This document shows, one piece after another, positions 5,216 through 62,263 of a stretch of 64,000 nt of DNA. A model generated the notes under the pieces. That model made no database searches, was not told the DNA's origin, and saw nothing but the letters and a program-made list of their open reading frames with translations. The DNA is from Lagopus muta (taxonomy: Eukaryota; Chordata; Aves; Galliformes; Phasianidae). Both the position numbers and the translations under genes were made by a program. Each line of letters starts with the position of its first letter. The first letter of the stretch is position 1. The DNA lies in assembly GCF_023343835.1 (NCBI RefSeq), contig NC_064434.1:9281505-9345504 (forward strand), given 5' to 3'.

Positions 5216-5385
5216 TTCTGTCCCTGCATCACAAACGTTGCCATAGTGCCCACTGATGACACGGCAACCCACATCACAAAGGGGACAGCCCCAAGTTCTG
5301 GGCAGAGGAGGCTGGGTGCCACTTTGCCTGTGAGTTGTCTGGAGAGAGGAGCTTGACCGCTCTGCTCTCTGTGCACGTCACAGAC

Positions 5386-7668
5386 ATGGCTGATTTCTGG
5401 GGAATGAGCTTCTTCCTCAGCCTGGAGGATGACGATATCTTCTACCCCATCCTCCGGATCATGCTGAACATAGCATTATGTGCATTCATGACAGCCTTGT
5501 GGAACCGGAAGGTAGGAGTCAGGGCTGGTGCTGAGCCAGGCGCAGCAACACAGGGAGGGGGGTCAGAGGGGTCAGGGCCATCCGCAGGGCTGGGCTGGGC
5601 CCTGCCTGGGAGGAGAGGCCGTGTCCCAGCGGGGCTGGCCAGGCTCGGCCGGGAGTCCCGACGCAGGCGCGGGGCTGGGCCTGGCTGTGCCCTGGGTTGG
5701 TGGGTGCCGCTGAGGCTGCTGGGGATGCTCCCCTCTCACTTGCTGCTTTCTGTGCCCATACAGGAAGAGAGACAGAGGAAGTGCCAACACGGAGGTAACC
5801 GGGAAGATTCTAGAGGTGCTCCACATCCACTCTCTCCGTCTCCTTTGCCAACGGTTTCGGACTTCCACTCGTCTTCACAGCACGCGAGGATGCAGTAAGT
5901 AAAATTGTCCCCTCTTGGAGCATGGCAGCCCTCTCCAGTCACCAAATGGAATCCCACTAACGCTGCTCTCTGCTCTGCTGCAGCTCCTCAGTGCCCGGGC
6001 AAACGGATGATACCAGTGAAAGACTCAATCGCATGAACAGAAGACTTCGGGCCATGACCAGACGCTTGGAGATGTGAGACCACTGATAGGGGATGGGGAT
6101 GGGGATGGGGATGGGGATGGGGATGGGGATGGGGATGGGGATGGGGACGGGCAGGGCTTGGTGGCAAGGAAAACTGCAGTGACTCAGGGAGGGATATCCA
6201 CAGACTTGGAATCTGAGAGGCAGTGTCCTTGTGAAAGGGTTTACCACAGAGGCACAGACATGACAGAGTCATCCTTGCTCTGTGCCTCGCAAGCAGGGGT
6301 GGAAACTTGGGCACATGCTTGTTGGGACCCTGTGGAAATGACATAGCCTGCCAACACCTTTGAGGTGACAGAAGAGCCCGGGGGCCCTCACGAGTGTTTG
6401 GCTCAGAACTGCCCTCATCTTCCTTCTCTTTCTCCATGTGACACAGGCTCATCTTGGGAATGCCAGAGGGCAGCAATGATTCCACCACCTTGGACATAGA
6501 GAGTGAAAAGCTCTGCACTTCGAGGACATCGCTGTTCCCTTTGAGCACCAGTTGCAGGGAAATGAAGGCACCTTGCCTACACCACAAAGCCCAGAAGAAC
6601 TTGGAAAGCTCCATCCCAGAAAGCAAGGTGGAGCAGGGCCTGGGCTTCAGTGATCAGAAAAAGCCTGTTGCGATAGTGGTTCCCATGGTGCAGCACCTGC
6701 CCTTTGTGGATGAGGCTGCAGGAAGTCATCCAAAGCATCATAACATGCAATCGAGGATTCTACCACAGTGTGAAACAGTCAGCCCCCAGCCAGAACATGC
6801 AGACATGAGCCCCAGGGACGTCTCAGCAGAACATGAGGCACCTAGGCCAGAGACACCACAGCTGCATTGCAGATGTGTCTGTTTGCCAATCCACTTCACG
6901 TGCCTTTACATTCATCGTGCCTGGGCCAAGCTCCAAGCTGCTACCAAGGCCCTCTATTCCACGATCAGAAAGAGATGTGAGAGGCTCACAAGGAAGGGAG
7001 GAGAGCCCATCAAGGAAAACAGATTCCCAGCGCTGACCAGGCTGGACACACATCAGCATGGGAGTAGACAATGGCTCAGACTACTGGCCAAAAGGGAAAG
7101 CCCACGTCCACCTCTGGAGGCAATGAAGAAGGACTTGGTGGCATCTGAAGATAAGAATTTCAGTGGTGCCACTGAGTCTGGAGATGCCAATAATGGATCG
7201 AGCCAGGGTGGCAGCAGCCACAGCCTCCAGGACGTGCTGGCTCCTGTTGCCTGTAGAGAGCCAGCCCAAATGCTGCTACCTGTTAGTGGGCTGCTCTTGG
7301 AGACCCCAGCTCCTGCTCCATCTCAGAATGTTGATCTAGCAGGTGTCCAGGTGGGTACAGCTGCAGTGAGTAGCAGATTGCCACCACATGCGACCAGTGG
7401 GCAGGAGCAGAAGGGCAAGGGACAAACCCAGGACAAGCCAGCTCCTACAGGAAGAACTTTTCCACAAAAACAGCACTCCTCCAGTGAGCAGAGACCCCCT
7501 GATGTGCCACAGCCTCCAAATCCCACTGGGACCAAGACTCCAGTCCCCCTCATGCTCGAGCTCTTCAAATTTATTAGACATTTGAACAAAGCCAGACAAA
7601 CAGCAGATGAGCTGCAGAAGGAAGCGCAGGCTTCCTTTCCAAAAGAGCACACAAGCATCGTCAAGTAA
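5386..7668 (+). CDS. Unrecognised four-exon gene, copy 1 (522 aa, one membrane anchor)
   Basis: I do not recognise the product. Proposed coding exons are 5386-5511, 5764-5894, 5984-6073 and 6447-7668, with GT/AG introns (gtagga..acag, gtaagt..gcag, gtgaga..acag) and matching phases (0, 2, 2). The start ATG has G at -3 and +4. Exon 1 (42 codons) starts MADFWGMSFF and contains one hydrophobic stretch (about residues 22-38) followed by WNRK, so a single membrane anchor is likely. Exon 2 is basic and Ser/Pro-rich. Exon 3 ends in an Arg-rich heptad-like helix (LNRMNRRLRAMTRRLEM). Exon 4 is large, polar and low in hydrophobic residues, with a helix-prone C-terminus. Compared with copy 3, exon 4 lacks an in-frame 501-bp block. 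The layout of a short membrane exon, small exons and a giant last exon recalls SPATA31/SPEM-type spermatid proteins, but I saw no shared motif, so that is only a guess. Confidence 0.62.
6089..6148 (+). repeat. (GGGGAT) hexamer tract, 10 units, intron 3 of copy 1
   Basis: Nine GGGGAT units and a closing GGGGAC begin 15 bp after the exon-3 splice donor. The sense strand and the pre-mRNA carry runs of four G every 6 nt, which suits G-quadruplex formation. The matching tracts in copies 2 and 3 have 17 and 14 units, so it behaves as a VNTR. Confidence 0.95.
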
Positions 7669-9065
7669 CCAAGGACGGGTATGGCAGCAGAGGAACCTGG
7701 GGCGAGGACACATGGTGGAAGAGAAGGGCGAAGGATGCACCCAGAACAGATCTGACTCTGGGGCACTCTGCTCTACGTGCAGCAAAGCCCCACACTGCCA
7801 CCAGCCACGAGGGGTAAGCTCCCAGAGATTGGCTGCACCTGCAACTGCAGCTCCAGGAGCAGGATGAGAAGAGACTGTGAATGAATGCCCAACAAGGACA
7901 GGACAAGAGGCAGCAGATCCAAAAGATGCGCCTGCAGATCATCATCCAGAGGGCCTCCTTTGGCTGAGGACATCAACCCCTGTAATTGCAGGAGGGAGCC
8001 CACCAGGACACACAGTCTGTAAGCAGCAGATCCTGTCACACCCTTCCAGGGAGAAGGTGCTCTCCCTGCTAAGCCATCTCACAGGTGTCCTTCTGCTCTT
8101 TCCTGTGTAGGAATAGCAGCTGCAGCTCCTCTGCTCACTACTCAGTCATCTTTGCTTGGACAGCTCTGTTGCCATCTTCTGCAGAGAGGACACAGTGGCT
8201 GTCCTGATCCCAGCAGGCAGGGACTGGGCCTGGCATTCCCAGAGGCTTTCAGCACGGGCTGGGAGCAGTGCCAGTCGTGCAAGGCAGCAAAGGGCAGAAA
8301 GCAATGAGCTTGGGTGTGCACAGTGGGACTGAGAAGATAGAGGCCCCAGCACCCATTCTGCTTGCTGCTGTAGGACAGGCAGCCACCTGCAAACGGCAGA
8401 GAGATGCTTCTGTGGGCACCACCTCTCATTGCTGTGGCACTGTATGTATTAGTCTCCTTCAAAACCCCTTGCTTCTCTTTCCAGGAAAACCGGGGCCGTG
8501 GCATGCAGGTGACCCAATAGCCCTGGGAGGGTGGTAGGATCCCTGTCCCGAGTACCTGCTTAAGAGGGGGACACGGCTGAACTTCTGACACAAGCACTAC
8601 TTTGACCACTGGTAGTTGTTACTGGCTTTTGGGGGAAAACAGAACAGTCCAATGACTTTGCTCTCTGTTCCTCATCAGCCATTGTCACCATCTAATTTGA
8701 CATCCCCACTTTCCCTTGTTGCTCAGCCACACTGCACTGCCTTTGAAGACTCAGTAACTTGGTTCTCAGGCATGGAGCACGCAGAAATATAAACAATTAT
8801 ATGACTGTGTAGAGATCCTGATCCAAGTCCCTTACCGCACCCATAAACACTGGTTGGCCTTCCATAAGCTGCACACTGGGTGAGAAGGTTTGTTGTGTGA
8901 AAAAGACCCTTTCTTAAGCCAGTCAGATACAGTCGCTAAACATAATGAGCCATGAGACCGTTGTCACCTAACAGAAACTTGCAGCCAGTGTATAAAAATC
9001 ACAAGTATCACACAGGAAAAACGGGACTGTTTCTGATCTCCTCCTACCTCCAATCCTTCGCAACC
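7669..9065 (+). other. 3' flank of gene copy 1, no clear gene
   Basis: Conserved in all three units up to about 8500 and in units 1 and 2 beyond. At 7826-7880 one frame reads as a Gln/Leu-rich helix (LHLQLQLQEQDEKRL) up to a TGA; past the stop the same frame continues helix-like to about 7964. This may be a 3'-terminal exon or 3' UTR. No typical AATAAA was located with confidence. The rest shows no coding signal. Confidence 0.5.
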
Positions 9066-9400
9066 TCCACATAAGGACATTGAGGTGCTGGAGCAGGTCC
9101 AAAGACGGACAACAAGGCTTGTGAAGGCCTTGGAGAATGTGCCCTATGAGGAGCAACTGAAGGAGTTTGGGCTGCTTAGTCTTGGGAAAAGAAGGCTGAT
9201 GGGAGACCTTATGGCTCTCTTCCAATTTCTGAAAGGTGCTTCCAGCAAGAGCGGGGTTGGTCTCTTCTCACTGGGGACAGGATGAGAGGAAATGGCCTCA
9301 AGTTGCACCAGGGTAAGTTTAGGTTGGACATCAGGAAACACTTCTTTACAGAAAGGGTTGTTAAGCACTGCAATAGGCAGCCCAGGGAGGAGGATGAATC
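9066..9400 (+). mobile_element. CR1 3' fragment, unit 1
   Basis: The plus strand reads as the C-terminal end of CR1 ORF2 ([20 protein letters not shown], then [14 protein letters not shown]) and the start of the 3' UTR (tgttaagcactgcaataggc). It stops without the CR1 tail and runs directly into a duplicated piece of exon 4. Confidence 0.88.
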
Positions 9401-9407
9401 ATCATTC

Positions 9408-9700
9408 AGCCCACCTCATGTGCCTTTACATTCAGCGTGCCTGGGCCAAGCTCTGAGCTGCCACCAAGGCCTTCTGTTCCATGATCAAAGAGAGATGTAA
9501 GAAGCTGTCAAGGAAGGGAGGAGAGCCCATCAAGGAAAACAGATTCTCAGAGCTGACCAGGCTGGACACAGATCAGCGTGGGAGTAGACAATGCCTCAGA
9601 CTACTGGCCAAAAGGGAAAGCCCGCGTCCACCTCTGGAAGCAATGAAGAAGGACTTGGTGGCATCTGAAGATAAGACTTTCAGTGGTGGCAGTGCAGCTT
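9408..9700 (+). pseudogene. Partial duplicate of exon 4 of the array gene, unit 1
   Basis: This stretch matches the middle of exon 4 (about 6890-7165 in copy 1): the codons for GGEPIKENRF, RLLAKRESPRPPLEAMKKDL and the following Ser/Gly-rich segment are recognisable. It begins after a frameshift, is preceded by CR1 3' sequence rather than a splice acceptor, and ends in LTR-like sequence with a stop at about 9735. It is a gene fragment, not a working exon. Its divergence from exon 4 (for example ERCKKLSRK for KRCERLTRK) exceeds the unit-to-unit divergence, so it predates the array duplication. Confidence 0.75.
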
Positions 9701-9704
9701 CTGG

Positions 9705-9905
9705 TTTTTGGACACTGTCATTTTATTTGACTTAATGTATTACAATGTGTTATCTTGTATTCCAGTATCTTTCTAGTAAAGATCTTTCTAGTAAATTAGT
9801 TTGTTTCTCCTCAGATCATTGCTGCTTTGGTCAGAACAGACAGTATGGTCAGAACAGCTGGAAGTTGTTCAAAGCATAGCATGATTTAACATCAGGAGAT
9901 TATAA
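9705..9905 (+). mobile_element. Degraded LTR-like remnant, unit 1
   Basis: The text around atgtgttatcttgtattcca, then 'tctagtaaa' and 'cagatcattgctgctttgg', follows the 3' half of the LTR at 17330-17420 (tgtgttatcttgtattccga, agtaaaataag, catagattgttgccgctgc) in the same order. It is best read as an older relative of the ERV LTR. Unit 2 has the same remnant with an internal deletion (about 23690-23765). Confidence 0.45.
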
Positions 9906-10127
9906 CATCTCCAGTTATTCTAAAAAAAATAAGCTTCATGCCCACCAGTAAGCAAGAAAAAATACTTTATTAGCTAAAAAAAATAATGGCTATGTCAGAA
10001 AAGGATCCCAGAGAATGCTCTCATTCTGGATGGCAAAACTGCAGCCTGGGAGGATCAGAGTGGACCCTACTTACGCTTAAGAAGGTGGTCCTGCAATAGT
10101 ACACAGAGGCGTACTATCCCACACAGA
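9906..10127. other. Short non-repetitive spacer, unit 1
   Basis: AT-rich spacer repeated at 23760-24008. No coding signal or recognised repeat. Confidence 0.5.
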
Positions 10128-11078
10128 GGGATTCCCATACGCTCTTCTCTGGTTTTATTCCCTTCCCTCTTCATATCTAGTTTAAGGCCCTCTCCACAAG
10201 GCCTACCAGCTCCTACACAACTATCCATTTCCTCCTTTCAGACACGTGAGACCCATCAGCAGATCTCAAGCCAGGTGCCAAGTAAACCACCCCATGATCG
10301 AAGGAACCAAAATTCTTGTGTTTGCACTAGTCTCTCAGCCAAGTGTTCACAAGATGAATTTTCCTGCTTCTCTCAGTGTCCTTCCCTGCCGCTCAAGGAA
10401 TAGAAGAAAATACTAGCTGTATGCCCACTCCATCAACTAACCACCCCAGTTGCCGGAAGTCATTTTTGATAATCCTCTGGCTTCTATCAGTGATCTCACT
10501 ACTGCCAGCCTGAACTATTAATAAAGGATAATAATCAGAGGGGTGGATCAGACTGGGGAGTTTTCTAGAAATATCCCAGACCCCAGGGAGGCAGTGCACT
10601 TCCCCACTGGTAGGGTCAGGCCGACATATAGGGCCCTCTGTTCCTCTCAGCAGGGACTCACCTACGACCATCACCCATCTGTCCTTCCTGGTGGAGGCAG
10701 TCTGGAGGTGTGGAGTTGATCACCCTAGACAACCTTGCAGGTAGATCTGCCCCCGCATCCTCACTCACCTCACCCTCAGGTTCTAGGGCCTCAAACGAAT
10801 TACGTGGAGGCACCTCAGGAAACAAGGTAGGTCGAGTTGGGGTTTGCCTGCGCCACTGAGCTGGCATCTGTTTCCACTCCTCCTCTCAAATCGGCTCCTT
10901 CTGCTCGAGTATAGCAGGGGATGGGGTCCACTACTGTTTCTTTCTCCCAGAGAGTTATTCCACCAATCTATCTCCTGCTCTCACTCTCTGAGTCCTTAAC
11001 CTCTCCACCTCCTCCTTGAGCTCTCCCACCATACCAAGCAGATGACCCACCTGCTCACACCTCATGCAGGTGGAATCC
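10128..11078 (-). mobile_element. CR1 ORF1 fragment (esterase and zinc-finger region), left part, split by the ERV
   Basis: The minus strand at 10393-10674 encodes the SGNH-esterase-like part of CR1 ORF1 (boxes LLRGTEGPICRPD, EVHCLPG and HPSDYYPLL). Nearer 11040 it encodes the Cys-rich start followed by a coiled coil. The block-I serine motif reads G-E-S rather than the common G-D-S. Immediately right of this segment lies the ERV; the CR1 resumes at 17532. The whole fragment is intact in unit 3 at 24009-25075. Confidence 0.8.
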
Positions 11079-11566
11079 TGTCATGGTTCTATGTTTTTGT
11101 TTTTGTTTTTTTTTGTTTCTGGGTTTCAGTATTCCACATCAAAACATCATGTAGTGTACGGGGCATTAAAGTGTCACTGCCCCAATCCCAGGTACCTATC
11201 CCTGTACATTACAGCAGTCACGGGATCTGACCCTTCCGGGTGGGGGGGGCGCGCTCTTGCTGCCTTGCAGTGGGTGCTGGAGGGTGCTTTCCTAGCCGTT
11301 CCAAGCTTTTTCAGGTTTGAATCAGTCCCGGGAACTCTCTCTCTCATCTTGTCTGATTTATTCATCTCAATTTCAATTAAATTGTATATATTGTGTTATT
11401 TTGTATTCCAATATTATAGTAAAATAAGTTTTCCTCCATAGATTGCTGCCGCTGCTCTTTTCCTCCCTTCCTTCCTTCCCATTTTTTGTGGGACTGGGGT
11501 GGGGAGGAGGGCAGAGGCCTGCCGCCCCTGTCACGGACATAGATTGATCTGGTCAACTCCCTGACA
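11079..11566 (+). repeat. 5' LTR of the ERV
   Basis: 488 bp, starting TGTCATGG and ending CCCTGACA. It matches 17066-17531 throughout except for point changes and an expanded T/G-rich stretch near the 5' end (about 11093-11120). The segment near 11385-11425 (agtaaaataag) probably lies around the polyadenylation region. Confidence 0.95.
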
Positions 11567-11572
11567 GATTTT

Positions 11573-11590
11573 TGGCGCCCAACATGGGGC
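11573..11590 (+). promoter_or_regulatory. Retroviral primer binding site, tRNA-Lys type
   Basis: TGGCGCCCAACATGGGGC lies 6 bp after the 5' LTR. It matches the 3' end of tRNA-Lys(1,2) with one difference (A for G in the middle), as in other Lys-primed retroelements. Confidence 0.85.
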
Positions 11591-11844
11591 TTGACTGCTT
11601 TTTAGCTTTTAGAATGAATCTCTTTTTCCCTCTGCTCTTAGAGAGCTTCGTTAGGGAGCATTATCAGTAGTTCAGGTTTCTGTGCTGGAAAACCTGACCT
11701 TGAAAGATTAGGCGTACTGCCAGTGTTCTGGGATATTTGTAAACTTTGAGCACTACTTAGTCTGGGTAGTGCCTTTTTTTCCTTTTTTTTTTTCCTCCTC
11801 TTGGTAGCTTCAATTCATTAACCCCTTTTTAGCAAGCACCAGTG

Positions 11845-12333
11845 ATGAACCCACTCGTTATCGTGGGGGTGCTGGGTAAAGGATTTAAAGCAATGGTGTT
11901 ACTCACAACCTACTGGCCAATAATCCATCTCACACTTGTGTGTTGTGGAATTGCATTCATATATAACTACCTAAGGGCACTGATGGAGACACCTATGTTT
12001 TACCTACTTGCAATGTGGTATGATTTGAATTTTGACATCTACATCCCAGAAGGAATGGCTAATTTCACAAACAACTACATCCCAGAAGGAATGGCTAATT
12101 TCACAAACAGCTACATCCCAAATGGAATAGCTAATTTTACAAACAACACGATGTTCAGACCAGTCTCCAGGTTTTCTTCTCGGTTTATCAAACGTTTTTC
12201 GAATCTTGAATTAGTACTCATGTTGTTGTTCGCGTCATCAATTCTCCTGAATGTATTCCAACGCATTTGTAATAAGGAGTCTCCTCCAAAACCAGAGAAT
12301 GATGACTGGCAGGGAATATGGAGAGGTTTATGA
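11845..12333 (+). CDS. ERV gag N-terminal part, hydrophobic, ended by an in-frame TGA
   Basis: 162 codons from the first ATG. This is the 5' part of the gag frame: the TGA at 12331-12333 is in the same frame as the downstream gag and pol. Two hydrophobic stretches (about residues 14-42 and 130-147) flank a section with three copies of a 12-residue repeat, each containing an N-F-T sequon. A membrane-embedded start is unusual for Gag. It could be a modified matrix region or a captured membrane segment. The TGA could be decay of a CGA codon or a regulated stop; I cannot tell which. Confidence 0.6.
   Translation: MNPLVIVGVLGKGFKAMVLLTTYWPIIHLTLVCCGIAFIYNYLRALMETPMFYLLAMWYDLNFDIYIPEGMANFTNNYIPEGMANFTNSYIPNGIANFTNNTMFRPVSRFSSRFIKRFSNLELVLMLLFASSILLNVFQRICNKESPPKPENDDWQGIWRGL
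12040..12147 (+). repeat. 36-bp coding tandem repeat, three copies, in gag
   Basis: Three consecutive 36-bp units (12040-12075, 12076-12111, 12112-12147). The first two differ at one base; the third carries several changes. Each encodes YIPxGxANFTN plus one residue, so three potential N-glycosylation sites are spaced 12 residues apart. Confidence 0.95.
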
Positions 12334-13782
12334 AAGGTCTTAGAAGCATGGGGACCCGCAGTGTCATGGGATTTTACTCTTGAACACCTGTGGGATCCTG
12401 AGAAACTAAGCCAGTATTTGAATCAGGGACTATGCGGCTTACATAAATCTAAGGAGGTACAACTTATTTGGGGTTTGGCTTGTGCTTACCGTGCCCTATA
12501 TAATACCATTCTGGAGAGAGAGAGTTTCCGAGCTGAGGTTCAAGCCAAAGGGGAAAATCCCCAAGTCAAATCTAATCAATCACAGGAGACACCAGTAACA
12601 ATACCGGTTGCTCCTGTGGAGGGCAAGAAATGGAAACGAGTGTCTTCGCGTCTTGAACGAAAAAGAGAAGAAGAGGAGGAGGAGGAGGAAGATCCAGGCG
12701 AGGGGCCCTCCTCAGAACCACCACCATCGCGAAAGGCAAAAGCGAAAACTAAGAGACATGCAGAAGAGAGTGATGAAGAGGAAGTCTCTATTACTACTTG
12801 CCAGCCTCTAAAGATGACTGAAATCCAAGGTTCAAGAAAGGAGTTTACACGGCGCCCGAATGAAAGTCTTGTTTCCTGGTTGGTTCGCTGTTGGGACAGT
12901 GGGGCCCATAGCTTGTCTCTGGATGGTAACGAAGCTCGCCAACTAGGTGCCATTGCCAGAGATCCAGCTATTGATAGAGGAATTAGTCGATGTTCGGATG
13001 AGGCTGCCTCCCTCTGGGAACGAGTGTTAATAGCCGTGAAGGAAAGGTATCCCTTCAAAAATGGCTTGAAGATTGCAATGAAAAAATGGGATACAGTTGA
13101 AAAGGGTATCCAGTATTTGAGGGAAATAGGTGTGGTGGAAATGTTGTATGACCCTGACTTTGTTCCTAACCAACCACACCAAAACCGCGACCCTGAAAAG
13201 GTGAGGACAACGCCTGAGATATGGCAGAAAATCGTGACAACAGCACCGGACAAATATGCCGCTACACTAACGTCAGCGTGTGACAGATACCAGGAACAAC
13301 AGAGAACGCCCTTAGTTTATGAATTAATTGTTACGCTCCAAAACTACGAACAATTGCTGTCCCCAATTCATGCTGCTGTTGCTGCTATATCAAAAATGAC
13401 GGAGCAAGTGTCTCAACTGATTAACCGTGACAAACCTGTAGCAGTATCAGAGACGCTTGATGAAGATCAGGATAATCAAATGAGTCTATTGAAAGAGATG
13501 AAGGAGATGATGAAATGTATGCAAGCCCACCTAACTAAAGACGATGAACCTTCCTTCTCACGTGCACCATCAAAGATCTCAGCTGTTAGAAGCAAACGCT
13601 CTCCAGCTCAAGTAAGGGATAATACACCTCAAATTGCCTTATGGTATTACCTACGTGACCATGGAGAAGACATGAGGAAGTGGCACCGTGAACCTACTGC
13701 TGTACTGCGAGCACGGGTGAAAGAATTACAAGGCAGATCAACCACCAGTGCAGTTGCTCCAGTTACCACAGGTAATGAATAG
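12334..13782 (+). CDS. ERV gag-like region (capsid part), ended by TAG
   Basis: Open from the TGA at 12331-12333 to the TAG at 13780-13782, with no in-frame ATG until about 12811, so it was evidently made as a continuation of the upstream frame. It has an acidic run (about 12667-12690, poly-Glu) followed by a basic linker (RKAKAKTKR). A helical region with RRPNESLVSWLVRCWD follows, at the place where a capsid major homology region would be expected. No CCHC zinc knuckle is present. Position and length identify it as gag; sequence similarity was not tested. Confidence 0.7.
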   Translation, partial: KVLEAWGPAVSWDFTLEHLWDPEKLSQYLNQGLCGLHKSKEVQLIWGLACAYRALYNTILERESFRAEVQAKGENPQVKSNQSQETPVTIPVAPVEGKKWKRVSSRLERKREEEEEEEEDPGEGPSSEPPPSRKAKAKTKRHAEESDEEEVSITTCQPLKMTEIQGSRKEFTRRPNESLVSWLVRCWDSGAHSLSLDGNEARQLGAIARDPAIDRGISRCSDEAASLWERVLIAVKERYPFKNGLKIAMKKWDTVEKGIQYLREIGVVEMLYDPDFVPNQPHQNRDPEKVRTTPEIWQKIVTTAPDKYAATLTSACDRYQEQQRTPLVYELIVTLQNYEQLLSPIHAAVAAISKMTEQVSQLINRDKPVAVSETLDEDQDNQMSLLKEMKEMMKCMQAHLTKDDEPSFSRAPSKISAVRSKRSPAQVRDNTPQIALWYYLRDHGEDMRKWHREPTAVLRARVKELQGRSTTSAVAPVTTGNE

Positions 13783-13830
13783 GGGGGCCCTGCCCTCAGT
13801 CAGGGGGGGGAAAGGGATAATAGAGTATAT
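13780..13830 (+). promoter_or_regulatory. Candidate UAG readthrough site between gag and pol
   Basis: The gag TAG (13780-13782) is followed immediately by a G/C-rich run (GGGGGGCCCTGCCC) and a second G run at 13803-13810, with pol open in the same frame. This is the layout of gammaretroviral stop-codon suppression, where a UAG followed by a purine-rich spacer and a folded RNA is read through. The RNA fold has not been tested. Confidence 0.5.
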
Positions 13831-16968: not shown

Positions 16969-17052
16969 TTATATGTATACATATATATATAGCCATGTGT
17001 GAGTAATGCATTTTAATCATTTTTTGTTTGTTTGTATATATATGTGTATAGA

Positions 17053-17065
17053 ATAAGGAGTGGAA
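17053..17065 (+). promoter_or_regulatory. Polypurine tract of the ERV
   Basis: The purine-rich run aaggagtggaa directly precedes the 3' LTR, where plus-strand priming is expected. The run is short and interrupted by one T. Confidence 0.6.
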
Positions 17066-17531: not shown

Positions 17532-17640
17532 ACCAACAGCAGCAGGCTCGGGCACCGCCTGCAGCCAGAGACCCGCACAGCCACACAGGCACTCAGATTG
17601 GGTCATCACAGCCTTTTCGGCAATGGCTTTCAGCCAAAGA
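17532..17640 (-). mobile_element. CR1 ORF1 fragment, right part beyond the ERV
   Basis: Continues the CR1 that stops at 11078. The minus strand gives the Cys-rich start of ORF1 (VSGCRRCPS). The matching uninterrupted copy lies at 24969-25075 in unit 3. The 5' limit of the CR1 is approximate. Confidence 0.65.
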
Positions 17641-18330
17641 GAGACCATGGATTGTCTAGTGCCCTTGATAAGGTGCAGAGTGATAGATGGACTGGTCTCT
17701 TCATGGGGAGGAGGACTGCACCCTCCCTGCTCACGCACCCGGTGCCAACTGCTGCATTATTCCTCAGGAGCCGTGCTCTTCCCCCCTGGGGGAGCTGGGG
17801 CTCCCTGGTTCTCCCTCTACCTCTTTTGGTGTTTTGCCAACATTTTGCCAGTTTTACTTCTCTGTGACGGGTCCATTGTGCGAGGCTCTGCTCCGAGCTG
17901 ATCTGCTCGAGGTCTTCCCTGAAAACGCTGGGGAAGAGCAAGCAGCAGCAGCACGGCCATCATTGCCTTGCTGGACTTGTCAGGGCCAACAAGAGCTTCA
18001 TGGGCTCTCAAAAGTGGGAGCACGACACAGAGCCCGCGATTCAGTCCTTCCTGGTGAGAGGCAGAGGCTTTGCGTGGCCCTGCCCAGGGCCAGGTCTCGG
18101 TGTTGGCATGGCAGGCCGGCCATGGCCCCGCTGTGCTGAGCTGCCCCGCTGTGCCACACCCCACTGTCCAGCATCACAAACGTTGCCATAGCGCCCACTT
18201 ATGACACGGCAACCCACATCACAAAGGGGACAGCCCCATGTTCCGGGCAGAGGAGGCTGGGTGCCACTTTGCCTGTGAGTTGTCTGGAGAGAGGAGCTTG
18301 ACCGCTCTGCTCTCTGCGCACGTCACAGAC
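17641..18330 (+). promoter_or_regulatory. Upstream region of gene copy 2, present in units 2 and 3
   Basis: About 690 bp, nearly identical to 25078-25767 upstream of copy 3. Only the last 155 bp or so are present upstream of copy 1. It is moderately GC-rich. A CRE half-site (ACGTCA) lies within 20 bp upstream of the ATG in all three copies. GTTGCC and GGCAAC half-sites about 20 bp apart (near 18181-18212) resemble separated RFX half-sites. Six-frame open frames here look incidental. Promoter function is inferred only from position. Confidence 0.4.
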
Positions 18331-20517: not shown

Positions 20518-21156
20518 GCGCTGACCAAGCTGGACACACATCAGCGTGGGAGTAGACGATGCCTCAGACTACTGGCCAAAAGGGAAAGCCCACGTCCACC
20601 TCTGGAGGCAATGAAGAAGGACTTGGTGGCATCTGAAGATAAGACTTTCAGTGGTGGCAGTGAGTCTGGAAATGCCAAAAATGGATCAAGCCAGGGTGGC
20701 AGCAGCCACAGCCTCCGGGACGTGCTGGCTCCTGTTGCCTGTAGAGAGCCAGCCCAAATGCTGCTACCTGTTAGTGGGCTGCTCTTGGAGACCCCAGCTC
20801 CTGCTCCATCTCAGAATGTTGATCTAGCAGGTGTCCAGGCAGGTACAGCTGCAGTGAGTAGCAGATTGCCACCACATGCAACCAGTGGGCAGGAGCAGAA
20901 GGGCAAGGGACAAACCCAGGACAAGCCAGCTCCTACAGGAAGAACTTCTCCACAAAAAAAGCACTCCTCCAGTGAGCAGAGACCCCCTGATGTGCCACAG
21001 CCTCCAAATCCCACTGGGATCAACATTCCAAATTCCCTCATGAAGGAGTTAATCTCATCAATTCAAAAGTTGAAAAAAGCCAGACAAACAGCAGATCAGC
21101 TGCAGATGCAGTTGCAGGCTTCCTTTCCAAAAAACCCCACAAGCATCGTCAAGTAA
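20518..21156 (+). pseudogene. Exon 4 remainder of copy 2, beyond the nonsense codon
   Basis: The frame stays open after the TGA up to the normal TAA at 21156 and encodes the same C-terminal third as copy 3 (Ser/Gly-rich, Pro/Gln-rich, then a short helix and SIVK). It has no splice acceptor or start of its own, so expression would need readthrough. Confidence 0.7.
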
Positions 21157-21904
21157 CCAAGGACAGGTATGGCAGCAGAGGAACCTGGGGCGAGGACACA
21201 TGGTGGAAGAGAAGGGCGAAGGATGCACCCAGAACAGATCTGACTCTGGGGCACTCTGCTCTACGTGCAGCAAAGCCCCACACTGCCACCAGCCACGAGG
21301 GGTAAGCTCCCAGAGATTGGCTGCACCTGCAACTGCAGCTCCAGGAGCAGGATGAGAAGAGACTGTGAATGAATGCCCAACAAGGACAGGACAAGAGGCA
21401 GCAGACCCAAAAGATGCTCCTGCAGATCATCATCCAGAGGGCCTCCTTTGGCTGAGGACATCAACCCCTGTAATTGCAGGAGGGAGCCCACCAGGACACA
21501 CAGTCAGTAAGCAGCAGATCCTGTCACACCCTTCCAGGGAGAAGGTGCTCTCCCTGCTAAGCCATCTCACAGGTGTCCTTCTGCTCTTTCCTGTGTAGGA
21601 ACAGCAGCTGCAGCTCCTCTGCTCACTACTCAGTCATCTTTGCTTGGACAGCTCTGTTGCCATCTTCTGCAGAGAGGACACAGTGGCTGTCCTGATCCCA
21701 GCAGGCAGGGACTGGGCCTGGCATTCCCAGAGGCTTTCAGCACGGGCTGGGAGCAGTGCCAGTCGTGCAAGGCAGCAAAGGGCAGAAAGCAATGAGCTTG
21801 GGTGTGCACAGTGGGACTGAGAAGATAGAGGCCCCAGCACCCATTCTGCTTGCTGCTGTAGGACAGGCAGCCACCTGCAAACGGCAGAGAGATGCCTGTG
21901 TGGG
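21157..21904 (+). other. 3' flank of gene copy 2
   Basis: Near-identical to 7669-8415 and 28577-29325. Carries the same Gln/Leu-rich helix frame and TGA. No independent gene seen. Confidence 0.5.
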
Positions 21905-22380
21905 TGTCATGGAGTTGACTAGATCAATCTACATCCGTGATGGGGGCAACAGGCATCTGCTCTCCTCTCCGCCTCCCCCAGTCCCACAAAAATGGGAAGG
22001 AAGGAAGGGAGGAAAAGAACAGCAGCAACTATCCATGGAGGAAAACTTATTTTACTATGATACCGGAATACAAGATAACACAATATAATACAATTGAATT
22101 GAAATTGAGATTAATAAATCAGACAAGATGGGAGAGAGAGTTCCTGGGACCGAGTCAAACCTGAAAAGCTTGGGACGGCTAGGAAAGAAGCACCTTCCAG
22201 CACCCACTGCAAGGCAGCAAGAGAGCGCTCCCCCACCTGGAGTGGCCAGATCCCGTGACTGCTGTAATATACAGGGAAAGGTACCTGGAACTGGGGCATT
22301 AACACTTTAATGCCCCGTACACTCCATGATGTTTTGAATACTGAAACCCAAAACAAAAATAAAAACATAAAAACATCACA
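21905..22380 (-). mobile_element. Solo LTR of the ERV family, antisense, unit 2 only
   Basis: The reverse complement matches the ERV LTR from end to end. It sits in sequence that is continuous in unit 1 (8400-8425) and unit 3 (29310-29335). Flanks gtggg (21900-21904) and gttgg (22381-22385) fit a 5-bp target duplication with one change. It arose by insertion and LTR-LTR recombination after the units were duplicated. Confidence 0.92.
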
Positions 22381-23035
22381 GTTGGCACCACCTCTCATTG
22401 CTGTGGCACTGTATGCATCAGTCTCCTTCAAAACCCCTTGCTTCTCTTTCCAGGAAAACCGGGGCCGTGGCATGCAGGTGACCCAATAGCCCTGGGAGGG
22501 TGGTAGGATCCCTGTCCCGAGTACCAGCTTAAGAGGGGGACACGGCTGAACTTCTGACACAAGCACTACTTTGACCACTGGTAGTTGTTACTGGCTTTTG
22601 GGGGAAAACAGAACAGTCCAATGACTTTGCTCTCTGTTCCTCATCAGCCATTGTCACCATCTAATTTGACATCCCCACTTTCCCTTGTTGCTCAGCCACA
22701 CTGCACTGCCTTTGAAGACTCAGTAACTTGGTTCTCAGGCATGGAGCACGCAGAAATATAAACAATTATATGACTGTGTAGAGATCCTGATCCAAGTCCC
22801 TTACCGCACCCATAAACACTGGTTGGCCTTCCATAAGCTGCACACTGGGTGAGAAGGTTTGTTGTGTGAAAAAGACCCTTTCTTAAGCCAGTCAGATACA
22901 GTCGCTAAACATAATGAGCCATGAGACCGTTGTCACCTAACAGAAACTTGCAGCCAGTGTATAAAAATCACAAGTATCACACAGGAAAGACGGGACTGTT
23001 TCTGATCTCCTCCTACCTCCAATCCTTCGCAACCT
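22381..23035 (+). other. 3' flank of unit 2, continued
   Basis: Matches 8415-9065 of unit 1 almost exactly. No coding signal recognised. Confidence 0.5.
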
Positions 23036-23369
23036 CCACATAAGGAAATTGAGGTGCTGGAGCAGGTCCAAAGAAGGACAACAAGGCTTGTGAAGGCCTT
23101 GGAGAATGTGCCCTATGAGGAGCAACTGAAGGAGTTTGGGCTGCTTAGTCTTGGGAAAAGAAGGCTGATGGGAGACCTTATGGCTCTCTTCCAATTTCTG
23201 AAAGGTGCTTCCAGCAAGAGCGGGGTTGGTCTCTTCTCACTGGGGACAGGATGAGAGGAAATGGCCTCAAGTTGCACCAGGGTAAGTTTAGGTTGGATAT
23301 CAGAAAACACTTCTTTACAGAAAGGGTTGTTAAGCACTGCAATAGGCAGCCCAGGGAGGAGGATGAATC
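23036..23369 (+). mobile_element. CR1 3' fragment, unit 2
   Basis: Copy of the fragment at 9066-9400: ORF2 C-terminus ([20 protein letters not shown]) and part of the 3' UTR, without the tail. Confidence 0.88.
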
Positions 23370-23376
23370 ATCATTC

Positions 23377-23670
23377 AGCCCACCTCATGTGCCTTTACAT
23401 TCAGCGTGCCTGGGCCAAGCTCTGAGCTGCCACCAAGGCCTTCTGTTCCATGATCAAAGAGAGATGTAAGAAGCTGTCAAGGAAGGGAGGAGAGCCCATC
23501 AAGGAAAACAGATTCTCAGAGCTGACCAGGCTGGACACAGATCAGCGTGGGAGTAGACAATGCCTCAGACTACTGGCCAAAAGGGAAAGCCCGCGTCCAC
23601 CTCTGGAAGCAATGAAGAAGGACTTGGTGGCATCTGGAGATAAGACTTTCAGTGGTGGCAGTGCAGCTTC
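23377..23670 (+). pseudogene. Partial duplicate of exon 4, unit 2
   Basis: Copy of the fragment at 9408-9700, with the same CR1 junction on the left and LTR-like remnant on the right, so it was duplicated with the unit. Confidence 0.75.
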
Positions 23671-23673
23671 TGG

Positions 23674-23775
23674 TTTTTGGACACTGTCATTTTATTTGAC
23701 TTAATGTATTACAATGTGTTATCTTGTATTCCAGTATTCTTGTGTTATTCTTGTATTCCTGATTTAACATCAGGA
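23674..23775 (+). mobile_element. LTR-like remnant, unit 2, internally deleted
   Basis: Same remnant as 9705-9905 but about 100 bp shorter: it jumps from the ttatcttgtattccagtatt text to the tgatttaacatcagg text. Confidence 0.4.
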
Positions 23776-24008
23776 GATTATAACATCTCCAGTTACTCTA
23801 AAAAGAATAATCGTCATGCCCACCAGTAAGCAAGAAAAAATACTTTATTAGCTAAAAAAAATAATGGCTATGTCAGAAAAGGATCCCAGAGAATGCTCTC
23901 ATTCTGGATGGCAAAACTGCAGCCTGGGAGGATCAGAGTGGACCCTACTTACGCTTAAGAAGGTGGTCCTGGAATAGTACACAGAGGCGTACTATCCCAC
24001 ACAGAGGG

Positions 24009-25075
24009 ATTCCCATACGCTCTTCTCTGGTTTTATTCCCTTCCCTCTTCATATCTAGTTTAAGGCCCTCTCCACAAGGCCTACCAGCTCCTACACAACT
24101 ATCCATTTCCTCCTTTCAGACACGTGAGACCCATCAGCAGATCTCAAGCCAGGTGCCAAGTAAACCACCCCATGATCGAAGGAACCAAAATTCTTGTGTT
24201 TGCACTAGTCTCTCAGCCAAGTGTTCACAAGATGAATTTTCCTGCTTCTCTCAGTGTCCTTCCCTGCCGCTCAAGGAATAGAAGAAAATACTAGCTGTAT
24301 GCCCACTCCATCAACTAACCACCCCAGTTGCCGGAAGTCATTTTTGATAATCCTCTGGCTTCTATCAGTGATCTCACTACTGCCAGCCTGAACTATTAAT
24401 AAAGGATAATAATCAGAGGGGTGGATCAGACTGGGGAGTTTTCTAGAAATATCCCAGACCCCAGGGAGGCAGTGCACTTCCCCACTGGTAGGGTCAGGCC
24501 GACATATAGGGCCCTCTGTTCCTCTCAGCAGGGACTCACCTACGACCATCACCCATCTGTCCTTCCTGGTGGAGGCAGTCTGGAGGTGTGGAGTTGATCA
24601 CCCTAGACAACCTTGCAGGTAGATCTGCCCCCGCATCCTCACTCACCTCACCCTCAGGTTCTAGGGCCTCAAACGAATTACATGGAGGCACCTCAGGAAA
24701 AAAGGTAGGTCGAGTTGGGGTTTGCCTGCGCCACTGAGCTGGCATCTGTTTCCACTCCTCCTCTCAAATCGGCTCCTTCTGCTCGAGTATAGCAGGGGAT
24801 GGGGTCCACTACTGTTTCTTTCTCCCAGAGAGTTATTCCACCAATCTATCTCCTGCTCTCACTCTCTGAGTCCTTAACCTCTCCACCTCCTCCTTGAGCT
24901 CTCCCACCATACTGAGCAGATGACCCACCTGCTCACACCTCACGCAGGTAGAATCCCTGCAGCCCTTTACCAGCAGCAGCAGGCTCGGGCACCGCCTGCA
25001 GCCAGAGACCCGCACAGCCACACAGGCACTCAGATTGGGTCATCACAGCCTTTTCGGCAATGGCTTTCAGCCAAA
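24009..25075 (-). mobile_element. CR1 ORF1 fragment, unit 3, uninterrupted
   Basis: Minus strand: Cys-rich motif and coiled coil at 24833-25021 (CVRCEQVGHLLSMVGELKEE), then the esterase-like domain at 24271-24552 (LLRGTEGPICRPD, HPSDYYPLL). It shows the pre-insertion form of the site occupied by the ERV in unit 2 (gaatccctgcagccctttac at 24951-24970). It is a 5' fragment of CR1 with no ORF2. Confidence 0.8.
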
Positions 25076-25767
25076 GAGAGACCATGGATTGTCTAGTGCC
25101 CTTGATAAGGTGCAGAGTGATAGATGGACTGGTCTCTTCATGGGGAGGAGGACTGCACCCTCCCTGCTCACGCACCCGGTGCCAACTGCTGCATTATTCC
25201 TCAGGAGCCGTGCTCTTCCCCCCTGGGGGAGCTGGGGCTCCCTGGTTCTCCCTCTACCTCTTTTGGTGTTTTGCCAGCGTTTTGCCAGTTTTACTTCTCT
25301 GTGACGGGTCCATTGTGCGAGGCTCTGCTCCGAGCTGATCTGCTCGAGGTCTTCCCTGAAAACGCTGGGGAAGAGCAAGCAGCAGCAGCACGGCCATCAT
25401 TGCCTTGCTGGACTTGTCAGGGCCAACAAGAGCTTCATGGGCTCTCAAAAGTGGGAGCACGACACAGAGCCCGCGATTCAGTCCTTCCTGGTGAGAGGCA
25501 GAGGCTTTGCGTGGCCCTGCCCAGGGCCAGGTCTCGGTGTTGGCATGGCAGGCCGGCCATGGCCCCGCTGTGCTGAGCTGCCCCGCTGTGCCACACCCCA
25601 CTGTCCAGCATCACAAACGTTGCCATAGCGCCCACTTATGACACGGCAACCCACATCACAAAGGGGACAGCCCCAAGTTCCGGGCAGAGGAGGCTGGGTG
25701 CCACTTTGCCTGTGAGTTGTCTGGAGAGAGGAGCTTGACCGCTCTGCTCTCTGCGCACGTCACAGAC
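25076..25767 (+). promoter_or_regulatory. Upstream region of gene copy 3
   Basis: Near-identical to 17641-18330. Same ACGTCA half-site just before the ATG and the same spaced GTTGCC/GGCAAC half-sites. Promoter role inferred from position. Confidence 0.4.
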
Positions 25768-28576
25768 ATGGCTGATTTCTGGGGAATGAGCTTCTTTCTC
25801 AGCCTGGAGGATGGCGATATCTTCTATCCCATCCTCCGGATCATGCTGAACATAGCATTATGTGCATTCATGATGGCCTGGTGGAACCGGAAGGTAGGAG
25901 TCAGGGCTGGTGCTGAGCCAGGCACTGCAACACAGGGAGGGGGGTCAGAGGGGTCAGGGCCATCCGCAGGGCTGGGCTGGGGCCCTGCCTGGGAGGAGAG
26001 GCTGTGTCCCAGCGGGGCTGGCCAGGCTCGGCCGGGAGTCCCGACGCAGGCGCGGGGCTGGGCCTGGCTGTGCCCTGGGTTGGTGGGTGCCGCTGAGGCT
26101 GCTGGGGATGCTCCCCTCTCACTTGCTGCTTTCTGTGCCCATACAGGAAGAGAGACAGAGGAAGTGCCAACACGGAGGTAACCGGGAAGATTCTAGAGGT
26201 GCTCCACATCCACTCTCTCTGTCTCCTTTGCCAACGGTTTCGGACTTCCACTCGTCTTCACAGCACGCGAGGATGCAGTAAGTAAAATTGTCCCCTCTTG
26301 GAGCATGGCAGCCCTCTCCAGTCACCAAATGGAATCCCACTAACGCTGCTCTCTGCTCTGCTGCAGCTCCTCAGTGCCCGGGCAAACGGATGATACCAGT
26401 GAAAGACTCAATCGCATGAACAGAAGACTTCGGGCCATGACCAGACGCTTGGAGATGTGAGACCACTGATAGGGGATGGGGATGGGGATGGGGATGGGGA
26501 TGGGGATGGGGATGGGGATGGGGTTGGGGATGGGGATGGGGATGGGGATGGGGACGGGCAGGGCTTGGTGGCAAGGAAAACTGCAGTGACTCAGGGAGGG
26601 ATATCCACAGACTTGAAATCTGAGAGGCAGTGTCCTTGTGAAAGGGTTTACCACAGAGGCACAGACATGACAGAGTCATCCTTGCTCTGTGCCTCGCAAG
26701 CAGGGGTGGAAACTTGGGCACACACTTGTTGGGACCCCGTGGAAATGACATAGCCTGCCAACACCTTTGAGGTGACAGAAGAGCCCGGGGGCCCTCACGA
26801 GTGTTTGGCTCAGAACTGCCCTCATCTTCCTTCTCTTTCTCCATGTGACACAGGCTCATCTTGGGAATGCCAGAGGGCAGCAATGATTCCACCACCTCGG
26901 ACATAGAGAGTGAAAAGCTCTGCACTTCGAGGACATCGCTGTTCCCTTTGAGCACCAGTTGCAGGGAAATGAAGGCACCTTGCCTACACCGCAAAGCCCA
27001 GAAGAACTTGGAAAGCTCCATCCCAGAAAGCAAGGTGGAGCAGGGCCTGGGCTTCAGTGATCAGAAAAAGCCTGGTACGACGGTGATTCCCATGGTGTGG
27101 CACCTGCCCTTTGTGGATGAGGCTGCAGGAAGTCATCCAGAGCATCGTAACACAATGCAGGCACCAAAGCACGTGCAGAGGAGTTTCTCAGAGCCTGGCC
27201 TGGGGAAGAAAGACTCCCAGCTTTGCCATCCACTGAGGCAAGCAAGAAGGTCCATTCTCTCCCCCTGCCAGCACAGGCACGGGCAAATTCAGGCAAGGAG
27301 GTCAGCAGTGCAGGCCCTTGGCCCAGCGCGAAAATCGGTCTCCATGCTGGATACACGCAGATACAAAGGAACAAAGGCTAAAATCCAGATTGCCTGCTAC
27401 AGATTCATTGAAGGCCCTGAACACCAGCAAAACAGGATTATGCATCTATGGCTGCAGCAGTATGCGTATGTTCAGAGGGAAAAGACGAACAAGGCAGCAG
27501 AATGCCACATCCTGCCTGGCAACAAAAAATCCCAGAGCGTGTCTCCATCTCACACTGCAGCCCTGGTTAATGCCAGAGCTGCAACCGTGGACAAGAGGAA
27601 TTCACCTGAGGACAAGGCCAGTAAGCAACAGGGACAGAAAAATACCACTGTTGCCCAGCAGCCAGAGGAGCTTCTGCCACAGTTGTTCAGCTCCCAGCCA
27701 GAACACGCAGACATGTGGCCCAGGCACGTCACAGCAGAACACGAGGCACCCAGGCCAGAGACACCACGTCGGCATTTTAGAAGCTGCTGTGCACCAATCC
27801 ACTTCACGTGCCTTTACGTTAAGCGTGCCTGGGCCAAGCTCCAAGCTGCTACCAAGGCCCTCTATTCCACGATCAGAAAGAGATGTGAGAGGCTCACAAG
27901 GAAGGGAGGAGAGCCCATCAAGGAAAACAGACTCTCAGCGCTGACCAAGCTGGACACACATCAGCGTGGGAGTAGACGATGCCTCAGACTACTGGCCAAA
28001 AGGGAAAGCCCACGTCCACCTCTGGAGGCAATGAAGAAGGACTTGGTGACATCTGAAGATAAGACTTTCAGTGGTGGCAGTGAGTCTGGAAATGCCAAAA
28101 ATGGATCGAGCCAGGGTGGCAGCAGCCACAGCCTCCGGGACGTGCTGGCTCCTGTTGCCTGTAGAGAGCCAGCCCAAATGCTGCTACCTGTTAGTGGGCT
28201 GCTCTTGGAGACCCCAGCTCCTGCTCCATCTCAGAATGTTGATCTAGCAGGTGTCCAGGCGGGTACAGCTGCAGTGAGTAGCAGATTGCCACCACATGCA
28301 ACCAGTGGGCAGGAGCAGAAGGGCAAGGGACAAACCCAGGACAAGCCAGCTCCTACAGGAAGAACTTCTCCACAAAAAAAGCACTCCTCCAGTGAGCAGA
28401 GACCCCCTGATGTGCCACAGCCTCCAAATCCCACTGGGATCAACATTCCAAATTCCCTCATGAAGGAGTTAATCTCATCAATTCAAAAGTTGAAAAAAGC
28501 CAGACAAACAGCAGATCAGCTGCAGATGCAGTTGCAGGCTTCCTTTCCAAAAAACCCCACAAGCATCGTCAAGTAA
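25768..28576 (+). CDS. Unrecognised four-exon gene, copy 3 (689 aa, fullest copy)
   Basis: Exons 25768-25893, 26147-26277, 26367-26456 and 26854-28576 join in phase and encode 689 residues. This is the longest intact copy and the best reference for the family. Exon 1 gives the membrane anchor (PILRIMLNIALCAFMMAWW) after an acidic LEDGD turn. Exon 3 gives the Arg-rich helix. Exon 4 (574 codons) has a basic middle (RKSVSMLDTRRYKGTKAK), a region with IHFTCLYVKRAWAKLQAATK, a Ser/Gly linker, a Pro/Gln-rich stretch and a C-terminal helix (ISSIQKLKKARQTADQLQ). Intron 1 is 1 bp longer than in copies 1 and 2. No enzyme motif is seen. A membrane-anchored scaffold is possible. Function unknown. Confidence 0.68.
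26472..26555 (+). repeat. (GGGGAT) hexamer tract, 14 units, intron 3 of copy 3
   Basis: Thirteen GGGGAT-type units, one of them GGGGTT at about 26520, and a closing GGGGAC. Same distance from the exon-3 donor as in the other copies. Confidence 0.95.
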
Positions 28577-29734
28577 CCAAGGACAGGTATGGCAGCAGAG
28601 GAACCTGGGGCGAGGACACATGGTGGAAGAGAAGGGCGAAGGATGCACCCAGAACAGATCTGACTCTGGGGCACTCTGCTCTACGTGCAGCAAAGCCCCA
28701 CACTGCCACCAGCCACGAGGGGTAAGCTCCCAGAGATTGGCTGCACCTGCAACTGCAGCTCCAGGAGCAGGATGAGAAGAGAATGTGAATGAATGCCCAA
28801 CAAGGACAGGACAAGAGGCAGCAGACCCAAAAGATGCTCCTGCAGATCATCATCCAGAGGGCCTCCTTTGGCTGAGGACATCAACCCCTGTAATTGCAGG
28901 AGGGAGCCCACCAGGACACACAGTCAGTAAGCAGCAGATCCTGTCACACCCTTCCAGGGAGAAGGTGCTCTCCCTGCTAAGCCATCTCACAGGTGTCCTT
29001 CTGCTCTTTCCTGTGTAGGAATAGCAGCTGCAGCTCCTCTGCTCACTACTCAGTCATCTTTGCTTGGACAGCTCTGTTGCCATCTTCTGCAGAGAGGACA
29101 CAGTGGCTGTCCTGATCCCAGCAGGCAGGGACTGGGCCTGGCATTCCCAGAGGCTTTCAGCACGGGCTGGGAGCAGTGCCAGTCGTGCAAGGCAGCAAAG
29201 GGCAGAAAGCAATGAGCTTGGGTGTGCACAGTGGGACTGAGAAGATAGAGGCCCCAGCACCCATTCTGCTTGCTGCTGTAGGACAGGCAGCCACCTGCGA
29301 ATGGCAGAGAGATGCTTCTGTGGGCACCACCTCTCACTGCTGTGGCACTGTATGTATTAGTCTCCTTCAAAACCCCTTGCTTCTCTTTCAAGAAAAACCA
29401 GGGCCATGCAGGTGACCCAATAGCCCTGGGAGGATGTTAAGATCCCAGTCCTGAGGTCTAAGGCTCATTATGTGCTCTACTTGACCAGGTACTCTGAGAC
29501 AAGAAAAAAGCCAGGGTGAGGAAATGAGGGAGCACTAAAGGGGATGGAGGGAACAGTGAGAGCTGGCAGAGACAACTGGCAGTGAAGAACTCTGGTAGGT
29601 TGTTGCTGAAGTAATGAGCTTCAGGGCTAGTAAGACTGTGTTGGGTAAGTGTTCTAAAGCAAAAAGGGCTGACAAAAAAGCTCTTTTTAGGGCTTTTTTG
29701 AAGCCAGCAAAAGCAGTGTAAAATTGAGTCACAT
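28577..29734 (+). other. 3' flank of gene copy 3 and unique spacer
   Basis: Homologous to the other units to about 29455, then non-array sequence to 29734. No gene or recognised repeat in the last part. Confidence 0.5.
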
Positions 29735-62250: not shown

Positions 62251-62261
62251 TTGTTTTGCAG
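62246..62261 (+). promoter_or_regulatory. Splice acceptor just before the Rho-like start codon
   Basis: catctttgttttgcag, a T-rich tract ending in CAG, stands 2 bp before the ATG. It points to an upstream noncoding exon with the coding sequence in one later exon. Confidence 0.6.
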
Positions 62262-62263
62262 GA

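Follow-up and report, generated by a model that had tools for sequence, protein, structure and literature searches.

A 64,000-nucleotide stretch of the Lagopus muta genome, here called the window (positions 9,281,505-9,345,504 of the 110-Mb contig NC_064434.1, in a genome of 1.03 Gb), carries three tandem copies of a four-exon gene with a predicted membrane anchor, and it raises the question of which family this gene belongs to. The initial annotation could not place the product in any family and, from the exon layout, guessed at the spermatid genes SPATA31 or SPEM. We propose that the copies belong to a fast-evolving protein-coding tandem family of Galloanserae, which shares ancestry with mammalian SPATA31 and may encode membrane-anchored scaffold proteins. 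We put the probability of this reading at about 0.6. Judged by their sequence, the window copies would best be described as a derived branch, decayed in part, of a bird family related to SPATA31.

Gene models of the window copies

Self-comparison of the window found three copies in the same direction, at 5218-8552 (copy 1), 17532-21904 (copy 2), and 24969-29324 (copy 3), which confirms the positions in the initial annotation. Copies 2 and 3 are 98.9% identical over 4374 aligned nucleotides. Copy 1 is 94.8% and 96.4% identical to copy 3 in two main aligned pieces, and its identity to copy 2 is about 95-96% as well. The spacers between the copies (8412-11078 and 22381-24956) are 99% identical.

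All gene models are on the plus strand. Copy 1 (5386-7668) has predicted exons at 5386-5511, 5764-5894, 5984-6073, and 6447-7668, with an open frame of 522 amino acids. The exons of copy 2 (18331-21156) are predicted at 18331-18456, 18709-18839, 18929-19018, and 19434-21156. A TGA at 20515-20517 cuts its predicted protein to 476 residues from an otherwise possible 689. Copy 3 (25768-28576) is open over 689 amino acids, with predicted exons at 25768-25893, 26147-26277, 26367-26456, and 26854-28576. The predicted introns are GT-AG in 9/9 cases with phases 0/2/2, and would be spliced in this way in L. muta. Exon 4 is giant in every copy, and that of copy 1 has a net 501-nt in-frame gap relative to copy 3. 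The shared splice sites and phases, the giant last exon, its difference in length, and a nonsense allele had all been described before and were recovered in these models.

The predicted proteins have a simple layout. In copies 1 and 3, which were checked for this feature, residues 18-36 form the single hydrophobic segment, and beyond residue 60 every 19-residue window stays at or below 1.6, in agreement with the single N-terminal anchor of the initial annotation. The 19-residue mean hydropathy of the segment is 1.75 in copy 1 and 1.89 in copy 3, which places the window copies among the weakest of the family (1.86-2.65 in the relatives described below). An acidic N-terminus of 17 residues precedes the anchor, and Arg/Lys-rich exons 2 and 3 follow it. 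Exon 3 encodes the Arg-rich SSVPGQTDDTSERLNRMNRRLRAMTRRLEM, as had been noticed earlier. The frame upstream of the exon-1 ATG is also open in all three copies (5260-5385, 18205-18330, and 25642-25767) and has no ATG of its own. In pheasant and guinea fowl, the annotated proteins carry an N-terminal extension that this upstream frame matches.

Relatives in other birds

A protein search with spliced copy 3 gave six matches at E <=1 among 7760 candidates. A second search with an alignment of five of those gave eight matches at E <=10 among 7988 candidates, six of them new. The 12 relatives (P0001-P0012) include two from guinea fowl (Numida), one each from turkey (Meleagris) and pheasant (Phasianus), two from duck (Anas), and two from goose (Anser, one contig). 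These eight are annotated as uncharacterised, apart from the goose proteins P0009 and P0010 (Anser cygnoides), which are misnamed MDC1-like and acinus-like. The view that the gene cannot be placed in any family thus holds for names, but relatives do exist. All seven relatives with the N-terminus present have a MADFWGMSFF-like start and a hydrophobic segment at the equivalent position, and the five that were aligned resemble the copies in the basic nature of exon 2, in the helix region of exon 3, and in the acidic beginning of exon 4. Since the N-terminus and layout recur in annotated proteins of guinea fowl, turkey, pheasant, duck, and goose, we regard the copies as a gene family and not as a repeat. 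These results support a protein-coding family that evolves fast and has one anchor, at the N-terminus.

The relatives fall into two branches. P0002 (LOC110397018, Numida) is in the same branch as the window copies, with the same exon order and exon-4 content and 48% identity over 69% of copy 3. Unlike copy 3, it lacks 13 residues of a possible mini-intron (see below) and most of the C-terminal third. P0001, a partial sequence from a 6.5-kb ENA contig, belongs to the same branch and is 70% identical over 59% of copy 3. LOC116240547 (Phasianus), LOC109366306 (Meleagris), LOC110397144 (Numida), and the Anser and Anas proteins are related to the copies in the N-terminus and the exon-3 region. The first three of these have a RAWAKL..GKAL-like C-terminal segment, of which goose has a weaker form. 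They also keep, together with goose, a block of similarity to SPATA31, which is weaker in duck P0006 and half lost in the window copies. Guinea fowl carries both branches (P0002 and P0007).

The SPATA31 block

A FLDEAVKRQLERHIVKRQIQRRFGLPTKVL-like stretch of 34 residues occurs in the turkey, pheasant, guinea fowl, and goose relatives and matches the block that is best conserved in mammalian SPATA31. In a single BLASTP comparison, goose and squirrel SPATA31 aligned over these 34 residues without gaps, with 17/34 identical (E 6e-7). We compared the 12 bird proteins with 99 SPATA31 proteins, a set in which all organism-named rows are mammalian and 98/99 carry PF14650. Seven of the 12, each at the block, did better than any of 612 controls made by shuffling or reversal (best 0.005), with E-values from 4.7e-5 to 0.004, the weakest passing only just (0.004 versus 0.005). 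These seven proteins represent five genes, since P0009 and P0010, and likewise P0008 and P0011, are nearly the same sequence.

Profile comparisons pointed to the same block. A mammalian hidden Markov model (HMM), built from 23 of the 99 SPATA31 proteins, was run on 15 sequences of the bird family, with 4500 shuffled and 15 reversed sequences as controls. The best shuffle reached 0.71, and better values were obtained for two goose models (1.4e-5 and 3e-5), for guinea fowl P0007 (0.011), and for another relative (0.13). In the reverse search, 6/23 mammals exceeded the best of 4600 shuffles and 17/23 did not. With hhalign (seven bird versus 23 mammalian rows), the block scored 46.0, compared with 30.05 for the best of 100 column-shuffled alignments and 23.9 and 22.6 for the reversed ones. 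An alignment of 19 mammalian SPATA31s has 12 invariant columns, half of them (6/12) inside the block, and goose keeps four of these six residues; of the remaining two, H is replaced by R and W by F. The block with the pattern F-L-x7-L-x2-H-x7-H-x-W-G-L-P, the most invariant part of the 19 SPATA31s, was recognised in relatives and in the L. muta paralogues A-D described below, which match at the block with domain E-values of 3.1e-4 to 3.2e-3. In the SPATA31 protein P0080 the block (791-842) lies just after PF14650 (406-759). The N-terminal transmembrane segment and the giant last coding exon of SPATA31 are present in the bird family as well. From these sequence comparisons, common ancestry of the block with SPATA31 appears well supported.

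The window copies themselves stand further away. The exon-4 stretch of copy 3 that aligns with the block, HLPFVDEAAGSHPEHRNTMQAPKHVQRSFSEPGLGKKDSQ (27101-27220, plus strand, limits set by eye), is missing the GLPxKVL half. Because half of the block is gone from the window copies, and the scanned bird proteins have no PF14650 match, these copies would be called SPATA31-related rather than SPATA31, the latter being a membership defined by PF14650. The SPATA31 half of the original guess therefore gained sequence support through relatives and paralogues, but not through a significant match of copies 1, 2, or 3.

A second array on the same chromosome

When the C-terminal half of exon 4 was searched against the 1.03-Gb genome, at least nine matches at E <=0.01 were found, all on one contig. 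Six of them are the three copies, a truncated copy, and two fragments in the spacers, and the other three lie on the opposite strand near 11.0 Mb. These three belong to a second array on the same chromosome, 1.7 Mb away, with paralogues A-D at about 10.998-11.027 Mb; the counts for this array refer to 180 kb of the contig. The paralogues are spaced 8.5-9.7 kb apart, and their exon-4 frames are open after the junction for 688, 671, 671, and 677 codons. For the exon-4 frames of A and D, 3.8 stops would be expected (P(none) 0.017). A-D carry the block with few substitutions, and their exon 4 is 72.7-75.1% identical to that of pheasant LOC116240547. Exon 2 is lost in A, and exon 4 of B and C differs in one codon. 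Beyond A-D, ten compact degenerate copies lie within about 20 kb (contig 11034000-11053500). Their exon-1 similarity is reduced to 27 codons, most of their block copies lack the FLDEAV start, and part of the 5' cassette described below is still visible.

Near the window array, a fourth, truncated copy bearing a TAG lies directly left of the window (contig 9279661-9280520). Self-comparison and genome search also revealed an exon-4 fragment of a degenerate further copy at 9411-9694 (plus strand, 91% DNA identity to the copies, one TGA). The second repeat unit holds this fragment as well, at 23380-23663 (plus strand).

Mosaic divergence of exon 4 and the 5' cassette

The copies do not diverge evenly along their length. 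Exon 4 of copies 1 and 3 differs by 8.0% (raw), or about 7.0% without the deletion zone (81/1164 nt), compared with 1.65% in introns and flanks. The term near-identical, which the initial annotation used for all three copies, thus does not suit exon 4 of copy 1. Between copies 1 and 3, 88/1512 coding and 29/1760 intron or flank positions differ (Fisher P 1.4e-10). The coding comparison leaves out gapped and deletion-zone codons; it holds 58 codons with an amino-acid change and seven with a silent one, corresponding to a nonsynonymous divergence (dN) of 0.065 and a synonymous divergence (dS) of 0.045. Three patches of exon 4 (plus strand, from the copy 1/copy 3 alignment) are highly diverged, namely patch A (27041-27129), patch B (27673-28110), and patch C (28420-28576), with the highest divergence in patch C (dN 0.26, dS 0.14). 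In patch C, the outside protein P0001 agrees with copy 1 at 9/13 comparable sites and with copy 3 at none, and therefore the state of copies 2 and 3 seems derived there. Over the whole protein, P0001 sides with copy 1 at 20 sites, with copy 3 at 14, and with neither at 13. Copies 2 and 3 show no coding excess (16/2070 versus 10/1653). In the second array, each of the three pairs that include A shows an excess (5.2-5.7% in exon 4 versus 1.3-2.1% in intron 3), which was not found in B/D (1.84 versus 1.6%), C/D (1.89 versus 2.4%), or B/C (0.05 versus 0.8%).

The upstream region, exon 1, and intron 1 form a 5' cassette (plus strand), which is 542 bp long in copy 3 (25605-26146). The cassettes of copy 1 (5223-5763; contig 9286727-9287267) and copy 2 (18168-18708; contig 9299672-9300212) are 97.2% and 98.7% identical to it. 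The cassette of copy 3 is also 94.7-94.9% identical to that of genes B, C, and D with sharp edges, as the identity drops to <=60% immediately before the cassette and to about 70% in exon 2 and beyond. The truncated copy keeps 325 nt of the cassette at 96% identity, and A keeps 348 nt at 91%; in the ten compact copies, about 160 nt are 86-87% identical.

Read most simply, the pattern reflects concerted evolution, probably by conversion, which would keep the 5' cassette uniform inside each array and from one array to the other, with exon 4 escaping or receiving diverged tracts. Positive selection as the sole cause of the exon-4 divergence was rejected, as dS is raised too, and conversion or recombination with diverged copies is preferred, although these causes are not separable here.

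Proposed mechanism and alternative explanations

In the model that we favour, one N-terminal transmembrane helix would anchor the protein. By the positive-inside rule, the long exon-4 tail is predicted to be cytoplasmic, because the acidic N-terminus lies before the helix and the Arg/Lys-rich exons 2 and 3 lie after it. The tail may act as a scaffold on a membrane of the spermatid, either in the Golgi/acrosome or at the nuclear envelope, a role that has been put forward for mouse Spata31/AEP1, and by the same analogy we infer germline expression and a spermatid function. Unequal crossing over would multiply the copies. Among the fuller copies, conversion would hold the 5' cassette with its anchor exon uniform as exon 4 diverges, and the window copies would represent a derived branch with half of the SPATA31 block lost.

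Several results weigh against this interpretation. hmmscan found no PF14650 in the window exons, spliced copy 3, P0001-P0012, or exon 4 of A, B, and D, and matched it in the positive controls P0080, P0016, and P0104. PF15371 (DUF4599) had no match in the bird sequences scanned, and one of the three mammalian controls, P0104, lacked it too. The exon-3 helix aligned co-linearly with DUF4599 in hhalign at a score of 32.0, which fell to 29.4 after three rows were added, within the control range (maximum 30.05), which leaves the helix short of proving DUF4599. Neither P0001 nor P0002, the nearest relatives of the window copies, reached significance in the SPATA31 comparison, nor did P0005, P0006, and P0012. 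The remaining 11/15 bird sequences, including copies 1, 2, and 3, did not stand out with the mammalian HMM. Of the four paralogues, A alone stood out among the ten best entries of the whole-sequence table (best of 2000 shuffles 0.23). AlphaFold2 was uninformative for a bird relative (mean predicted local distance difference test score 32.1), and the model of a mouse-type SPATA31 was too poor for a fold search (33.2). In addition, dN is close to dS, which leaves purifying selection at the protein level undemonstrated.

These observations leave room for other explanations. The family may consist of membrane proteins peculiar to birds, in which the similarity of the block to SPATA31 arose by chance or convergence, which would fit a likeness limited to one block, the missing SPATA31 Pfam domains, and an HH-suite probability at the block of only 37-42%, itself a point against common ancestry. 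We consider this quite improbable, as five bird genes match the same block above all controls, the block is the most conserved part of SPATA31, and the order of parts agrees. The window copies may also be relics, a side branch without the block that drifts under relaxed constraint beside a second array in which only B-D work. The stop codon in copy 2, the truncated upstream copy, the two spacer fragments, the half-lost block, the dN and dS of copies 1 and 3, and the presence of both branches in guinea fowl are all in line with this. Copies 1 and 3, however, are open over 522 and 689 codons, although 2.6 stops would be expected in their exon-4 frames (P(none) 0.064). Their 501-nt difference is in frame, and guinea fowl has kept an annotated member of the same branch, so we regard the relic explanation as unlikely.

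A SPEM1/2/3-type spermatid gene, which was the other half of the original guess, appears very improbable. Pfam holds a SPEM model. The likeness of SPEM proteins to the copies consists of a short N-terminus, a transmembrane segment, and then W and basic residues, whereas no SPEM family was among the Pfam scan matches up to E 10 (scans that included no profile comparison), and the block favours SPATA31. The candidate was rejected for want of Pfam support. The probability that the copies are part of a repeat element, which the initial annotation had considered, or an assembly artefact is practically negligible. Retroelement reverse transcriptase and long terminal repeat (LTR) sequences do occur in and around the array. 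But the few exon-4 matches on a single contig (at least nine, as given above) speak against the dispersed high copy number of a transposable element, and relatives are annotated in five other species.

Other features of the array and the window

An LTR provirus at 11091-17539, with reverse transcriptase, RNase H, and integrase matches in Pfam, separates copies 1 and 2. Its LTRs are 95.5% identical, compared with about 99% for the surrounding array units, as if the array had been homogenised after the insertion. A lone antisense LTR (21905-22376), 85.6-86.6% identical to the provirus LTRs, follows copy 2 and is absent after copy 1.

In exon 2 of copy 3, a stretch of 39 nt (13 codons; 26199-26237, plus strand, ends set by eye) starts with GT and ends with GG, and it is also present in copies 1 and 2. 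The five aligned relatives skip these 13 residues, as do P0007 and P0009 by eye. The GT start follows AGAG, the stretch is pyrimidine-rich, and it ends in CCAACGG. Gene A has CCAACAG at the equivalent place, and B-D have CCTACGG, an open stretch of about 117 nt, and no GT start. Read by eye, the 39 nt may be a former mini-intron that turned coding when its acceptor changed from AG to GG.

Other Pfam matches were weak and below the cut-off: Matrilin_ccoil (0.082), Hydin_ADK (0.42), Peptidase_M91 (0.071), WCCH (5.4), Crust_neuro_H (0.27), DUF6320 (0.11), and CS_DNAAF11_C (0.028). The exception is VC2046 in goose P0009 (6.6e-6; 26.7 bits, above the curated cut-off of 25) and P0010 (0.0011), which falls on internal repeats and appears spurious.

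Outside the array, RHOB is encoded as one open frame at 55618-56205 (minus strand), with RhoB as the best PDB match. A second open Rho-type GTPase frame at 62150-62854 (plus strand) is 51% identical to RHOB. Its changes from GDGACGKT to GDDCSGKT and from DTAGQE to DMSGKDE perhaps alter the GTPase activity. In human, C2orf16 and RHOB are both on 2p. The HUGO Gene Nomenclature Committee has renamed C2orf16 as SPATA31H1 (PMC12807706).

Comparison with mammalian SPATA31

If the relationship is true, a bird homologue would shift the origin of SPATA31 back to amniotes or earlier, and would provide an outgroup for SPATA31 function together with a second tandem expansion. It would also name uncharacterised poultry genes with possible relevance to male fertility. 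Judged by title and the start of the abstract, no paper among the matches listed concerns an avian or reptile SPATA31. Mouse Spata31 is described as interacting with syntaxin and beta-actin, with testis-only expression and an infertile knock-out (PMC5338094, PMC4254261), and of the human SPATA31 genes, several are given as testis-specific (PMC7436996).

The predicted window proteins (476-689 residues) are shorter than the SPATA31 matches (about 800-1950), and PF14650 and PF15371, which typify mammalian SPATA31, were undetected in the scanned bird sequences. On the other hand, mammalian SPATA31/FAM75, like the bird family, has an N-terminal transmembrane segment, a giant exon 4, described as the longest coding exon (PMC5338094), and a FLDxxxxxxLExHIVKxxxxxRxGLPxKVL-like block. 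The same source describes recent duplications of human SPATA31 that evolve in concert, one copy truncated in exon 4, and a duplicated first exon and promoter in type C (PMC5338094); the bird cassette pattern, as read from the sequence, is similar. We tentatively suggest that SPATA31 is an amniote family that forms two arrays 1.7 Mb apart in Galloanserae, with a cassette of about 540 bp that would be kept alike by inter-array conversion and exon-4 tails that would be free to diverge, in parallel with the human SPATA31 core duplicon.

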